A stretch of DNA of 64,000 nucleotides. It comes from Aestuariispira ectoiniformans (lineage in GTDB: Bacteria > Pseudomonadota > Alphaproteobacteria > UBA8366 > Aestuariispiraceae). Positions 7,972 through 32,020 of the stretch are shown in pieces. The notes under the pieces were generated by a model. That model made no database searches. It was not told where the DNA came from and saw only the letters and a list, made by a program, of their open reading frames with translations. Within the stretch, counting starts at the first letter, position 1; every line of letters starts with the position of its first letter. The translations under genes were made by a program, and so were the position numbers. The stretch covers positions 4,233,588 through 4,297,587 of the forward strand of contig NZ_CP062788.1 in the NCBI RefSeq assembly GCF_025136295.1, in the 5' to 3' direction.

Positions 7972-9207
7972 CTACGGCAGTTTCAAGAACAGCTTCCCGA
8001 ACCCGTGCAGGCCGTTGAATGTCTGCTGAAAAACAGTTGAAAACTGAAACCAGTCCGGCGAACCGGGCATCATGGAATGGATCTGTTCCAGGCTGCGGCG
8101 ACCGTCAATTGCCCGCAAAACCATCGCCGCCTGTGGCGGGAGCGTTAGCGGAAATTTGATGCCGTCCAGCTCCAGCCGGGGCTGCGCGCCCGGCGGCATC
8201 GCCCGAAAGCTCCTCTGGGTGACCTCATCACGATAGACGGGAATGGCCTTCGCATTTGTACAGGAGGCAACGGTTTCCTCGTCACGGTCCGCATGGGTCA
8301 GATAGACGATATGCTTTTTCAAATTCCCCGCCAGCAGTTCCGCAAACCGGGCCTGTTCCACCAGATCGGCATCTTTTAGCCGGGCCAGAATATCCTGATC
8401 CTGCAGATAGCTTTCCGGCCGGTAACAGGCCGGGTCAATGAAGCTGACGATCCTCAAGCCTGCCTCCGACACTTCCTGAGCCAGCTCAGGGACGGTATAG
8501 GAGCGGTCCTGCGAATGCAGCAACAGGTCGAACAGAGCGGCGTCGGAAACATTATGGTCTTCAATCTGCGCATTGCGCCGCAGCCAGTTGGTTTCCGGCA
8601 AGTCGGACAACAGCGACCGCGCCGTATCAATCCGCGACTGGGCGGAACCGTCCGCCGCCACCATCCGCAACATCTCCTGCATGGGATAGACACCGGTGCG
8701 GCCCAAGGTGCCATAGACCATAATACCCATGCCACCTTCGGGCGTGAGGGCCCCCTTCAGCGCCCGGAACCCTTCCTGCGGATTGGGGAGGTGATGCAAC
8801 ACGCCGCAACTGTCGATATAGTCGAATTCTCCCAATTTGGCTGCATCCAGCAATGAGCCGCTGTGAAAGGTAATATTCAGCCCGCGTCGGCGGGCGCGTT
8901 CTTCGGCGATCTTTCGCGAGGCCGACGACAGGTCGATATAATGGATATCCGCGTCGGCTCCTTCATCAGCCAGATGCTGCGCCAACATAATTAGGGCATC
9001 CCCCGTACCGCCCCCGGCCACAAGCACCCTGAAGGGCCGCCCGGCGGGTAACGCCCCCTTGAACAGGTGATGGCGAAGCTCCCTCAAGTGACTGGGAGAA
9101 CCGGTCACAAGCCGCTTTTTCTCATCCTTCGGGTCACGATGCGGATAGGGCAGTTCTTCATATTGTGCTTGCACGCGGTCTTTGCGCTTTACCGATTTTT
9201 TGGCCAT
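7972..9207 (-). CDS. Class I SAM-dependent methyltransferase with C-terminal winged-helix-like extension
   Basis: This is a 411-residue protein. A short basic N-terminus precedes YEELPYPHRDPKD, a motif found before the SAM-binding domain of a group of uncharacterised methyltransferases. The SAM site is VLVAGGGTGDAL (about 61-72), with the acidic loop HYIDLSSAS and motif IV/V CGVLHHLPNP. Residues about 210-320 form a substrate-binding region. The last 70 residues (RRSLEQIHSMMPGS ... FQQTFNGLHGFGKLFLK) look like a small winged-helix domain. The substrate is unknown. It follows the asparaginase gene by 39 bases on the same strand, so the two may be co-transcribed. Confidence 0.8.
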   Translation of the reverse strand: MAKKSVKRKDRVQAQYEELPYPHRDPKDEKKRLVTGSPSHLRELRHHLFKGALPAGRPFRVLVAGGGTGDALIMLAQHLADEGADADIHYIDLSSASRKIAEERARRRGLNITFHSGSLLDAAKLGEFDYIDSCGVLHHLPNPQEGFRALKGALTPEGGMGIMVYGTLGRTGVYPMQEMLRMVAADGSAQSRIDTARSLLSDLPETNWLRRNAQIEDHNVSDAALFDLLLHSQDRSYTVPELAQEVSEAGLRIVSFIDPACYRPESYLQDQDILARLKDADLVEQARFAELLAGNLKKHIVYLTHADRDEETVASCTNAKAIPVYRDEVTQRSFRAMPPGAQPRLELDGIKFPLTLPPQAAMVLRAIDGRRSLEQIHSMMPGSPDWFQFSTVFQQTFNGLHGFGKLFLKLP

Positions 9208-16323: not shown

Positions 16324-16722
16324 ATGATGGAAATGACACTCCCCAGCAGGGCCCGGATCGAACAAATGGCAACCGAAGCTTTCGCCGCCATTCCAGAAGA
16401 GTTGCGCGCGCCCTTGGGCGACATCGTCTTTCGGGTGGAGGAGCTTCCCGATGCGCAGACCTGCGCGGCCCTTGACCTGACCAGCCCCTATAATCTTCTG
16501 GGTCTTTATCACGGCATAGACCTGTTGCGGAAATCGGCCTTCCAGATCAATCAGGACCTGGATCAGATCTTCCTCTACCGCCAGCCGATTCTTGCCTTTT
16601 GCCAACAGACCGGCGAGCCCCTAGAAGACGTCGTCACCCATGTCCTGATCCATGAGATCGGCCATCATTACGGGTATTCAGACGACGATATGGACCGCCT
16701 GCAGAGCGACAACGCTATATAA
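16324..16722 (+). CDS. Small zincin-like metallopeptidase (DUF1025-type)
   Basis: This 132-residue protein ends with VLIHEIGHHYGYSDDDMDRL, a zincin HExxH motif with the extended Gly-Tyr-Ser-Asp-Asp-Asp pattern of the bacterial metallopeptidase family formerly called DUF1025. The upstream sequence IVFRVEELP ... SPYNLLGLYHGIDL is also characteristic. Three candidate ATGs (16324, 16327, 16333) occur; the frame open back to 16135 overlaps phhB and is rejected. The substrate is unknown. The stop overlaps the convergent recX stop by eight bases. Confidence 0.85.
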   Translation: MMEMTLPSRARIEQMATEAFAAIPEELRAPLGDIVFRVEELPDAQTCAALDLTSPYNLLGLYHGIDLLRKSAFQINQDLDQIFLYRQPILAFCQQTGEPLEDVVTHVLIHEIGHHYGYSDDDMDRLQSDNAI

Positions 16723-17305
16723 GCTCTTCCAGTTCCTGCGGGTCATCGGCGTCCAGAACCTTGCGGGCCAGATCGAAGGAAAACCCCTGCCGGGCGAGTG
16801 CAGCCATATCCCGGTCGCGGTAATCCTCGCGCGCCTTCACCCGATAGGGACCAATCCTGCGCCGACGGACATAGGCAATAGCCGCAATCAGGTCGGTGTC
16901 TATATCATTGTCGTCCCTCACGGCCTGCAGCACGTCGTCGATCAGGCTTGCCTGCACCCCTTTTGCAGCCAATTTCATCCGGATGGCCTTGATCGACGTT
17001 CCCCGGCGCAGCAGGCTTGCCACCCGGCTTTCGGCATAGGCCTTGTCGTCAAGCAGCCCGGCATGCTGAAACCGTTCCACCAGGTCATCCACCAGCCGCG
17101 TACCTTCATCGCGGTCGGTCCCGTATTCCCGGACACTGCGTTCAACCCGGCGCATGAGCACCTTGCGCAGGTTGGCACTGCTGGAGGCATAGCGTTCCAG
17201 GTAGAACAGGGCCCCCTTGTGCAGGCGCTCTGCGGTAACCGGTTTGGCCTTGCGGCGGCCGGACGACCTGTCCTGCGGTGTTTTTTTCTTTTCATCCTGC
17301 GCCAT
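16715..17305 (-). CDS. recX: Regulatory protein RecX
   Basis: This 196-residue protein has the RecX three-helix repeats: ERYASSSANLRKVLMRRVER, then LVERFQHAGLLDDKAYAES with RRGTSIKAIRMKLAAKGV, and a C-terminal repeat with ALARQGFSFDLARKVLDAD. RecX inhibits RecA filament extension. The N-terminus is basic and lysine-rich (MAQDEKKKTPQDRSSGRRKAK). The start at 17305 is chosen on protein grounds; an in-frame start at 17368 would add 21 residues. recA is not adjacent. Confidence 0.88.
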   Translation of the reverse strand: MAQDEKKKTPQDRSSGRRKAKPVTAERLHKGALFYLERYASSSANLRKVLMRRVERSVREYGTDRDEGTRLVDDLVERFQHAGLLDDKAYAESRVASLLRRGTSIKAIRMKLAAKGVQASLIDDVLQAVRDDNDIDTDLIAAIAYVRRRRIGPYRVKAREDYRDRDMAALARQGFSFDLARKVLDADDPQELEELI

Positions 17306-17427
17306 TCGATGGCCCCGACCTGTCGTGAAATGCAGCGCCAGCCTAGCAATCCCGCGACCGAAGACCAAGGCCTCAGAATATTTGAAGCCTCTTATAAATA
17401 AAAAAATTTGCTAAAATTTTATCTTGC

Positions 17428-17470
17428 TGTGATGGCCGTCACAGTGTGATCACAATCAGCGCGCTATAAC
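17428..17470 (+). promoter_or_regulatory. CRP/FNR-type palindromes with class II promoter geometry
   Basis: TGTGATGGCCGTCACA (17428-17443) matches the TGTGA-N6-TCACA consensus of CRP-like regulators. A second perfect short palindrome TGTGATCACA follows at 17445-17454. TATAAC (17465-17470) is a -10 box 21 bases after the first site, which puts that site at about -41.5 from a start near 17477, the standard class II position. The next gene on this strand begins only at 17709, so the promoter most likely serves the small RNA described below. Confidence 0.6.
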
Positions 17471-17476
17471 AGGCTT

Positions 17477-17612
17477 ACAAACGAACTGCCGGTCAGCCGG
17501 TAGCGAGATTGTTCCTAAACGGTCGGTGTTATTTCCTGCCCCTCCCATCCAACACCGATCGTCCGGGATCCCAAAATGGCAGTGTCCGGTCTCCGGGCAC
17601 TGCCATTTTTTT
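17477..17612 (+). ncRNA. Candidate trans-acting small RNA with anti-Shine-Dalgarno loop
   Basis: The 402-base gap between recX and the next gene contains no credible protein gene but holds three consecutive hairpins. Hairpin 1 (17486-17503) has stem CTGCCGG / CCGGTAG. Hairpin 2 (17520-17561) has an 11-pair stem CGGTCGGTGTT / AACACCGATCG whose 20-base loop carries CCTGCCCCTCCC, complementary to ribosome-binding sites. Hairpin 3 (17573-17609) is a 17-pair terminator followed by seven T residues. A -10 box and CRP-type site sit just upstream. Three hairpins with a CCUCC-type loop is the layout of known rhizobial trans-acting sRNAs. Ends are predicted, not measured. Confidence 0.6.
17573..17612 (+). 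terminator. Strong intrinsic terminator of the candidate small RNA
   Basis: AAAATGGCAGTG pairs with CACTGCCATTTT, extended by a T-G pair and CCGG/CCGG around a TCT loop, and is followed by T7. No protein gene upstream on this strand needs it, which supports an independent short transcript. Confidence 0.88.
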
Positions 17613-17708
17613 GTGCCCGGGCATTTGCCCCCAAGCAACAGTATGTCGTTGTTTTGCGGAAAATATGATAGCCTTCTAACAAACAAGAAATAAAATCAGG
17701 CCAGGCCT

Positions 17709-19022
17709 ATGCAGGCAAAACAGAATTTCGAAGACCGTGGCGTCTATGTCGGTCTTCGGGCGAAGGGACTGGAAACGGTACGTTGCCGTAAAGCCAAAGC
17801 GGCGAATGGCGTATTCGAAGCCCTGGTCGTCAACTGGAGCGGCGATACAAATCAGAAATCCGCCGGTGACCTCGTGATGCCGTTTCGCGACCTGCCACAT
17901 TGGCGCCCGCTTATCCCTTTTGACGACCATCTTTTCCATTCGGTTCAGGACTATGGAACCAGGTCTTCCGGCTATATGGACCCGATTGTCATGCGCGAGT
18001 TGCGCCTGAAGACGATTCTGAGGTTCGGCCACGTGTTTGAAGCCTGCAAAGCCGAAAGGACGCTTGCCGGGGAAGGAACGGAATTGCAGGAAACCTTCCT
18101 GGAAATCCTGTGCCTGTTTTCCCGCAAATACGGCCGCACAATCGGCGACCGTGACCTGCAATTCGTCACGCGGGACGTGCTGCACCGCCTGATTGCCGAG
18201 GATATGGGGGAACTTACCCGGCTGGCCCGGCGTCTGGCCCACGCGGTCGCGGACCTTATCGGCATGGATGGCAATGTGCTGGCCCGGCGCATTGAATTCT
18301 ACAGCGAGTTCGGCGCGCCGATCTGTTCCCTGCTGGCCGAGGATAAAACGCGGGCCATCGGCTATCTCAGCCGTCAGTTGGGGGACCTGGAGCATCTGGT
18401 CATGGAAATCCAGGAGTACGGCCTGGACAAGAAGGGCGAACTGGCCGTCTTCATCGACCGCATTCTGGACAATGCCCTGAAGTTCATCAGTTTCACCCTG
18501 GCCAAGGCGACCCAGATTCATGACATGATGCTGGACAACCGCGCCTATATCAACGAACAGAAATTCAAGGAACTGCGCCGGGAACTGACGGCCAACCGGC
18601 TTTATATTTCCTTTGCGCTGGACGGCTGGGGAAGCCACGGGAAGAATTGGGAACTTGCAAAACTGGAAGGCCCGGAAGCCTGCCGGGATTTCATCATTTC
18701 CCTATACCGCACCATGCCACACCCGACAAAAGAGCTGGAAAACACGCTGGCAAGCATCGGCTATGACATGCGCCATGCGGGCCTGCGGGCAGGCCTTGTC
18801 AGGGTTCTGCATTCCTGGGATGACGAGACCCTCGACCAGGAACTGGCAAAGCGGGTTGAGGAAGGCCGACAACGACAGGAAAGCCGCACGGAGGAGCAAC
18901 ACCCCAAAAAGAAGAAAGCCGCGGCCCCTCCCCCGGAAATCGAGAAGGAGGAACTGGGGGATGTCATGGATTACCTGTCCGATGCCATGGCAAATGAAAC
19001 GGACACCGACAAAAAGCATTAG
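17709..19022 (+). CDS. Uncharacterised 437-residue protein
   Basis: I do not recognise this protein. It has no signal peptide or membrane segment. Residues 1-110 contain a beta-rich start (RGVYVGLRAKGLETVRCRKA) that could be a small barrel, then PFDDHLFHSVQDYG. Residues about 110-330 look mainly helical (LGDLEHLVMEIQEYGLDKKGELAVF, FKELRRELTANRLYISFALDGW). The last 70 residues are charged, with a KKKKAAAPPP stretch and an acidic end. Codon use looks like its neighbours. A role in regulation or signalling is possible, but nothing visible proves it. Two ABC-2 permease genes follow on the same strand after 157 bases. Confidence 0.75.
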   Translation: MQAKQNFEDRGVYVGLRAKGLETVRCRKAKAANGVFEALVVNWSGDTNQKSAGDLVMPFRDLPHWRPLIPFDDHLFHSVQDYGTRSSGYMDPIVMRELRLKTILRFGHVFEACKAERTLAGEGTELQETFLEILCLFSRKYGRTIGDRDLQFVTRDVLHRLIAEDMGELTRLARRLAHAVADLIGMDGNVLARRIEFYSEFGAPICSLLAEDKTRAIGYLSRQLGDLEHLVMEIQEYGLDKKGELAVFIDRILDNALKFISFTLAKATQIHDMMLDNRAYINEQKFKELRRELTANRLYISFALDGWGSHGKNWELAKLEGPEACRDFIISLYRTMPHPTKELENTLASIGYDMRHAGLRAGLVRVLHSWDDETLDQELAKRVEEGRQRQESRTEEQHPKKKKAAAPPPEIEKEELGDVMDYLSDAMANETDTDKKH

Positions 19023-31857: not shown

Positions 31858-31873
31858 AGTGATTGCAATCACA
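31858..31873 (-). promoter_or_regulatory. CRP/FNR-type palindrome upstream of minus-strand RNA
   Basis: Minus strand TGTGATTGCAATCACT contains the perfect palindrome GTGATTGCAATCAC. It is 22 bases from a TATATA box on the minus strand, again class II spacing. In the plus direction no -10 box lies at the matching distance. Confidence 0.45.

Positions 31874-31944: not shown

Positions 31945-32020
<76 letters not shown>

Follow-up and report, generated by a model that had tools for sequence, protein, structure and literature searches.

A candidate small RNA gene diverges from recX

The window analyzed here is a 64,000-nt stretch of the Aestuariispira ectoiniformans genome (G000; contig C1, 4233588 to 4297587). 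Within it, a 340-nt gap between recX (positions 16715 to 17368, minus strand) and a gene for a 437-amino-acid protein (17709 to 19022, plus strand) contains a candidate small RNA (sRNA) gene on the plus strand. The recX open reading frame, a diverging neighbor that lies outside the RNA, was assigned by a Pfam match (RecX_HTH2, E = 5.4e-10), with scores against the NCBIfam RecX models all under their cut-offs; its linkage to the RNA is conserved. The 437-amino-acid protein matched no Pfam or NCBIfam model.

A CRP-type operator (TGTGATGGCCGTCACA, 17428 to 17443, plus strand) is followed 21 nt downstream by a −10 box, TATAAC (17465 to 17470, plus strand), so that the TGTGA-N6-TCACA site and the TATAAC box named in a preliminary description of this DNA were borne out. 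With its 5′ end placed from the −10 box and its 3′ end from the terminator, the sRNA gene would span 17477 to 17612 (about 136 nt, plus strand), and the operator would be centered about 41.5 bp upstream of the inferred start, in the class II position.

The segment from 17470 to 17612 folds into three hairpins at −63.8 kcal/mol (z score, −6.97), a value that none of 200 shuffled sequences equaled. Hairpin 1 has 7 bp (core, 17486 to 17503). Hairpin 2 (17519 to 17562), the presenting hairpin, has 12 bp and a 20-nt loop (17531 to 17550) in which a 12-nt motif, CCTGCCCCTCCC (RNA, CCUGCCCCUCCC; 17535 to 17546), is exposed with an unpaired probability of 0.87 to 1.0 in this genome; this motif is the presumed seed. 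The third is a terminator hairpin of 17 bp with a 3-nt loop and a T run (17573 to 17612, stem-loop to 17609). All three lie on the plus strand. The three hairpins and the 20-base middle loop agree with the preliminary description, which had counted 11 rather than 12 pairs in the middle stem. Its "17-pair terminator with T7" was correct as to the stem but counted bases twice, since the 17-bp stem already takes up 4 of the 7 T residues (17606 to 17612), which pair with AAAA, and leaves 3 as a tail. The plus-strand hairpin was not flagged by a simple terminator scan.

The predicted RNA defines a family in one order of Alphaproteobacteria

Plain DNA similarity searches of 58 relatives returned one 37-nt match only, covering the loop and the 3′ arm. 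The loop 12-mer itself was found in 28 of 39 genomes of the order, and many of these sites share one setting, a hairpin around the 12-mer followed by a GC-rich hairpin. A covariance model, R1, was built from 18 sequences with the 12-mer in this setting. Searches with R1 recovered one match per genome in 26 of 43 genomes of the order at E ≤ 2.1e-10; these 26 matches, 18 from the seed and 8 from outside it, are referred to below as strong members. The match in this genome scored 75.0 bits (E = 1.0e-13, whole genome), its sequence being part of the 18-sequence seed. Matches at 1e-5 to 1e-6 were found in G014, G019, and G035 (the g8 members), which have a short version of the RNA with the loop CCTGCCCCTTCC, and at a second place in G007. 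A divergent version recognized by eye in G006, outside R1, has an operator, the 21-nt spacing, and the loop ACCCCTCCC. By the model, 29 of 43 genomes in 13 of 18 genera carry the RNA; adding G006 gives 30 genomes and 14 genera. The tally at E ≤ 0.01 is 34 of 43 genomes, and the 19 places weaker than 1e-5 were excluded from our counts as unsure.

The gap beside recX was examined in 17 genomes, among which R1 matched G014, G019, and G035 only. The RNA was absent from this gap in the five f4 genomes G016, G020, G029, G032, and G023 and in G039. The gap was empty in G004, G012, G013, G021, and G030, in which the RNA lies elsewhere. No recX was located in G034, G026, and G018; in G017 and G041 it is at the edge of a contig. 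Beside recX in G024 and G033 (loci L114 and L115), traces of the RNA (CTCTGCACTTCC and CCCTGCACTTCC) and a damaged operator were visible by eye, and R1 gave no match in these two gaps; the decay there appears to affect promoter and seed jointly. A weak R1 match in G017 (L077, contig C194, 105097 to 105201; E = 2.4e-4) has by eye the same kind of hairpin, the seed CCTGTCCCTCCC, and a best operator with 7 of 10 half-site letters, and this copy is possibly decaying or diverging. The changed seed and operator in G017 and the decayed appearance of G024 and G033 suggest that some lineages can do without the RNA.

The second place in G007 (L023, contig C1, approximately 8058 to 8162; E = 1.3e-6) is a hairpin that shares the 12-nt loop and is accompanied by a terminator-like hairpin but lacks a CRP site. 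By eye it sits at the 3′ end of an apparent chemotaxis receptor gene, with the stop codon in the 5′ arm, and it is possibly a 3′ untranslated region relative of the sRNA.

A scan of named contigs yielded eight loci: six members, from metagenome-assembled genomes labeled Rhodospirillaceae, Alphaproteobacteria, or Proteobacteria (one, L081, additional to our genome set), and two chance matches without an operator. At the level of the class, an R1 search of 387 genomes with 10 candidates scored in each gave, among the matches listed, only the host's family (6 genomes), and an exact pattern search of 385 genomes likewise matched the host's family only (5 genomes). No f2, f3, or f4 genome was among the class-level matches listed, and these searches test absence of the RNA outside the order loosely. 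The gene is usually single copy per genome and would belong to one order of Alphaproteobacteria.

Stems covary around a nearly invariant loop

Covariation was measured on the 29-sequence R1 alignment, which leans towards structure in that 18 of the 29 sequences built the model. Standard pairs fill 87.5% of pair cells. The covariation score was 0.481, compared with 0.239 in shuffled alignments (0 of 500 reached 0.481) and at most 0.136 when pairing partners were slid, so the stems covary above both controls, as those of a conserved structured RNA would. The terminator (helix 3) has 11 of 13 pairs changed on both sides and 96.5% of cells paired, helix 2 has 8 of 10 pairs changed on both sides and 81.1% of cells paired, and helix 1 has 70.1% of cells paired. 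The low pairing in helices 1 and 2 is probably due in part to rows that align one column off. The preliminary description had proposed looking in related genomes for conservation and compensatory change, and both were found, both partners having changed in 22 of 26 pairs.

The loop 12-mer is constant although the stems vary. CCTGCCCCTCCC is identical in 26 of 26 strong members, which were chosen by the model yet all have the exact 12-mer, and the three g8 members differ from it by one C-to-T change. Over the 29 sequences, 11 of the 12 positions are the same in all and the twelfth in 26, in a comparison whose anchor pattern allowed variation at the twelfth position only; the weak match in G017 differs at another position. 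The exposed C-rich loop and the sRNA gene of the preliminary description are both supported by this comparison, the gene through its R1 matches, covarying stems, and promoter geometry.

Other parts of the RNA vary. The start-to-loop distance is 21 to 24 nt in G022, G028, G031, G040, G014, G019, and G035, 44 nt in G006, 102 to 103 nt in G002 and G008, and 58 to 71 nt in the remaining members. Judged from predicted starts, hairpin 1 is a dispensable part, the RNA being about 40 nt shorter 5′ of the loop in some genera. At the other end, 11 of 30 members have three or fewer T residues in the first 8 nt past the terminator stem, a point against the working proposed below that bears on termination and Hfq binding in those members. 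In L060 (G022) and L069 (G015), for example, a long GC-rich terminator stem is followed by 3 and 2 T residues in 8 nt, and the 3′ end of such members may be formed by another route.

A CRP-type operator stands at a fixed distance from the −10 box

Taken alone, the CRP site is weak evidence: the window has 22 CRP-like sites with three or fewer mismatches, compared with a shuffle mean of 16.3. The operator is one of two window sites with a single mismatch and one of seven perfect TGTGA-N6-TCACA sites in this genome. A simple promoter scan found no sigma-70 promoter at the locus. It is the comparison of genomes that makes the promoter convincing. When the 170 nt 5′ of each loop were scored for the two half-sites only, all 26 strong members, and also G014, G019, G035, and G006, had a CRP-like site that matched 9 to 10 of 10 half-site letters. 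A NANNNT hexamer, a feature outside the criterion by which operators were selected, lies 21 nt past the operator in 29 of 30 members, and no other spacing between 10 and 33 nt has it in more than 7 of 30; this genome is the sole exception, at the last base (TATAAC). Operator and correctly spaced −10 box occur together in 25 of 26 strong members. Among 26,000 single-base shuffles of the upstream sequences, the operator arose 105 times and the operator with the −10 box 7 times. The spacing is kept in the five members away from recX (G004, G012, G013, G021, and G030). We take this geometry to be that of a class II CRP promoter, centered near −41.5, and the CRP-type promoter predicted in the preliminary description gains support from it.

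Two further CRP-like sequences were seen in the window. One (TGTGATCACAATCAGC, 17445 to 17460, two mismatches) lies within the spacer between operator and −10 box, and by eye no such sequence occurs in the spacers of other members. The other (AGTGATTGCAATCACA, 31858 to 31873) is near consensus and lies about 70 nt upstream of a tRNA at 31945.

A cAMP-type regulator is the probable activator

Nine HTH_Crp_2 proteins scored over the cut-off in this genome. The strongest PF00325 protein, L103, is presumably FnrL-like, with a cysteine cluster. FNR boxes have the form TTGAT-N4-ATCAA, and for that reason we disfavor FnrL as the activator and prefer a cAMP-type CRP, L131 (contig C1, 2831319). This protein has cNMP_binding and HTH_Crp_2 domains and the helix STTRETVAR, and its solved relatives include catabolite gene activator proteins. 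The same helix was found in 10 of the family's 13 other genomes. Of the remaining three, G001 and G007 matched our patterns in the nucleotide-binding motif alone, and G012 matched none of them at the place examined. Main-cluster CRPs bear RE(T/M)VGR, according to the part of the report that deals with them (PMC10127613), and the RETVAR helix of L131 is near, not identical to, that motif. From the operator and the protein motifs, CRP is the probable activator; the nine HTH_Crp_2 proteins of this genome weigh against a firm assignment.

L126 (contig C1, 3930038) is a second cAMP-type candidate. A perfect palindrome, TGTGAACCGGTTCACA, at 3930776 to 3930791 of the same contig lies near the start of this CRP-type regulator gene (distance estimated), which suggests self-regulation.

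The RNA resembles known sRNAs in kind but appears to be a new family

Rfam includes the alpha-r families. At the gathering score, its only match in the window was a tRNA, and there was none in the 20 of 26 strong-member loci examined. Up to E = 10, the region from 17400 to 17720 gave seven weak matches with no alpha-r family among them; the Rhizobiales family present, Atu_C4, scored 13.4 bits, where its cut-off is 80. The Rfam comparison proposed in the preliminary description thus returned no alpha-r match at either level, and of its "member or analogue" of the alpha-r14/alpha-r15 type, the analogue stands, as regards the anti-Shine-Dalgarno class, while membership does not. In the portions of the reports that describe it, three CCUCCUCCC loops are the defining trait of alpha-r14 (PMC10746234, PMC3927594), and membership is ruled out by the single C-rich loop with CCUGCCCCUCCC and the lack of an Rfam match.

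The likenesses drawn below rest on the relevant passages of the reports cited. Like the recX-side RNA, alpha-r14/NfeR1 of Sinorhizobium meliloti keeps an ultraconserved C-rich anti-Shine-Dalgarno motif in loops while its stems diverge (PMC10746234, PMC3927594), but it presents three CCUCCUCCC hairpins from a promoter activated by LsrB and repressed by NtrC, in place of one CCUGCCCCUCCC loop and a CRP-type promoter. AbcR1 and AbcR2 (alpha-r15) likewise have anti-Shine-Dalgarno-like motifs, with largely transport and metabolic mRNAs as targets (PMC10746234); they differ in their LsrB-linked control, and the RNA described here has no Rfam match. GsrN of Caulobacter has an exposed C-rich loop that is its most conserved part and pairs with G-rich mRNA (PMC5869019). 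By binding the 5′ leader of katG it raises KatG. It has a general-stress (sigma-EcfG) promoter and usually lies near sigT-phyR; here the conserved promoter feature is a CRP-type site and recX is the neighbor in 21 of 26 strong members.

Two sRNAs provide parallels on the side of control. CyaR (RyeE) of enterobacteria is CRP dependent, with a conserved seed that pairs with the ompX Shine-Dalgarno sequence (PMC11795201), and is counted among sRNAs with a partial anti-Shine-Dalgarno loop (PMC3927594). It belongs to another bacterial class and has a different loop, and the recX-side RNA lacks an Rfam match. On the two points that would make the analogy close, a predicted operator with class II spacing was observed in 25 of 26 strong members, and the loop is complementary to Shine-Dalgarno-like sequence; our pattern searches found no convincing conserved target. 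SMelC181 of S. meliloti has reduced promoter activity without the CRP-like regulator Clr (PMC10127613); the Clr site has the core GTNNCNNNNGNNAC. Because SMelC181 is a CRP-like-dependent sRNA in an alphaproteobacterium, the kind of RNA is already known, whereas the family appears new: we found no description of it among the papers listed from the searchable full-text literature, which leaves out most subscription papers. The operator, promoter spacing, seed loop, terminator, and synteny define an RNA family that can be tested.

The loop most likely pairs with translation starts

Comparison of genomes reveals a conserved gene with a predicted covarying structure, a near-invariant loop, operator-promoter geometry, and independence from the downstream gene; transcription, control by CRP and cAMP, and pairing with mRNA are what we infer. 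We are fairly confident that this is a real, apparently uncatalogued, and probably CRP-activated sRNA family whose action would be trans-antisense. In the working that we propose, a cAMP-receptor-type CRP at −41.5 would activate the predicted class II promoter without need of a −35 box, so that high levels of the CRP ligand, presumably cAMP, would make the RNA accumulate. The presenting hairpin would hold the 12-nt CCUGCCCCUCCC open, and the strong terminator hairpin would end the RNA. The complement of this loop sequence, GGGAGGGGCAGG, resembles an extended Shine-Dalgarno sequence, and the loop would most likely pair with G-rich translation-start regions of several mRNAs, lowering their translation, possibly with help from Hfq. 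Such pairing is the likeliest use because the NfeR1 and CyaR seeds block translation starts and GsrN pairs through a C-rich loop. The family suggests that a circuit from CRP to an anti-Shine-Dalgarno sRNA, like that of CyaR, originated independently in alphaproteobacteria, and cAMP signals could by this means be tied to posttranscriptional control in this group.

Candidate targets were sought with three patterns. Exact complements of the 12-nt loop, examined at 13 loci, included none at a clear ribosome-binding site and by eye fell mostly within coding frames or repeats. The pattern GGAGGGGCA-N1-14-ATG occurred 32 times in six genomes, compared with 6 times for a reversed control, and 30 sites examined in these genomes, after open reading frames of 50 amino acids or fewer were dropped, contained no orthologous pair. 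GGAGGGG-N3-8-ATG occurred 127 times in three genomes, compared with 29 for its control. All 127 sites were examined, with open reading frames under 60 amino acids dropped, and gave one orthologous pair, speD, for S-adenosylmethionine decarboxylase (L197/L235, 75% identity, 7-nt match); two other cross-genome matches, at 23% and 32% identity, were taken for paralogues. Any pattern that resembles a Shine-Dalgarno sequence would be expected to exceed its control in this way. In this genome, the strong matches whose start lies shortly past a stop codon are a DUF2336 protein (L179), a phosphotransferase-family protein (L271), and two ABC transporter permeases (L290 and L273); for two more matches to ABC transporter parts, L295 and L270, 60 nt of upstream sequence was examined. 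Beyond the weak speD pair, this narrow three-pattern search produced no convincing conserved target.

That outcome lends some support to an alternative in which the RNA is real and CRP activated but its loop captures a protein or the ribosome instead of mRNA start sites, whether as a decoy resembling the 16S rRNA anti-Shine-Dalgarno end or as a ligand of a C-rich-RNA-binding protein. The 12 nt of the loop are also more invariant than pairing with many different G-rich start sites seems to need. However, the target search was narrow, the loop is complementary to the Shine-Dalgarno-like GGGAGGGG, in a mode known for NfeR1 and CyaR in the sources cited above, and the g8 C-to-T change preserves G-U pairing with such a target. 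We regard capture as unlikely, its two variants taken jointly. It is similarly doubtful, though conceivable, that one dedicated partner, in place of generic pairing with many start sites, holds the loop invariant across the order, the RNA then acting as a cAMP-controlled global brake or decoy; that partner may be the 30S ribosome through its anti-Shine-Dalgarno site, a protein that binds C-rich RNA, or a single essential mRNA.

The RNA mostly keeps recX as a neighbor while its downstream gene varies

In 21 of 26 strong members, and also in G014, G019, G035, and G006, recX is the divergent neighbor of the RNA, while the gene downstream of the RNA varies between groups; a constant recX and a variable downstream gene argue that the RNA is not a leader. 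With a predicted promoter and terminator of its own and exchangeable neighbors, the gene has the sequence features of a trans-encoded sRNA. A leader or attenuator role for the element, acting on the 437-amino-acid gene, draws on the same-direction placement of that gene here and in G003 and G005. Relatives of the gene occur in 13 of 14 family genomes yet adjoin the RNA only in these three (G000, G003, and G005); none of the other 23 strong members has it downstream (the G031 contig stops too early to tell), it is located elsewhere in the genome in G001, G002, G004, and G009, for example, and about 100 nt separate it from the terminator end. Contradicted in this way by synteny, the leader reading is very improbable.

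The constancy of recX as a neighbor could instead mean that the operator serves recX and that the hairpins are merely an intergenic terminator or repeat. Against this stand the 21-nt distance to a −10 box that faces the RNA, which holds in 29 of 30 members, including the 5 away from recX, and the loop motif and covariation, which would be unexpected of a mere terminator; we give this reading very little credence. Least credible of all, and dropped, is a transcript encoding a small protein: short open frames do cross the loop in many members, but they read it in all three frames, depending on the member (LPLPS, PAPP, and CPSH, for example), with, by eye, no common peptide or start, and whatever the frame, all 29 sequences agree at 11 of the 12 loop positions.

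The surroundings of the 437-amino-acid gene offer a further observation. Two ABC-2 membrane genes come after it in this genome, and in the f4 genomes G029, G032, and G023 what appears by eye to be the same ABC-2 gene directly follows the recX gap.
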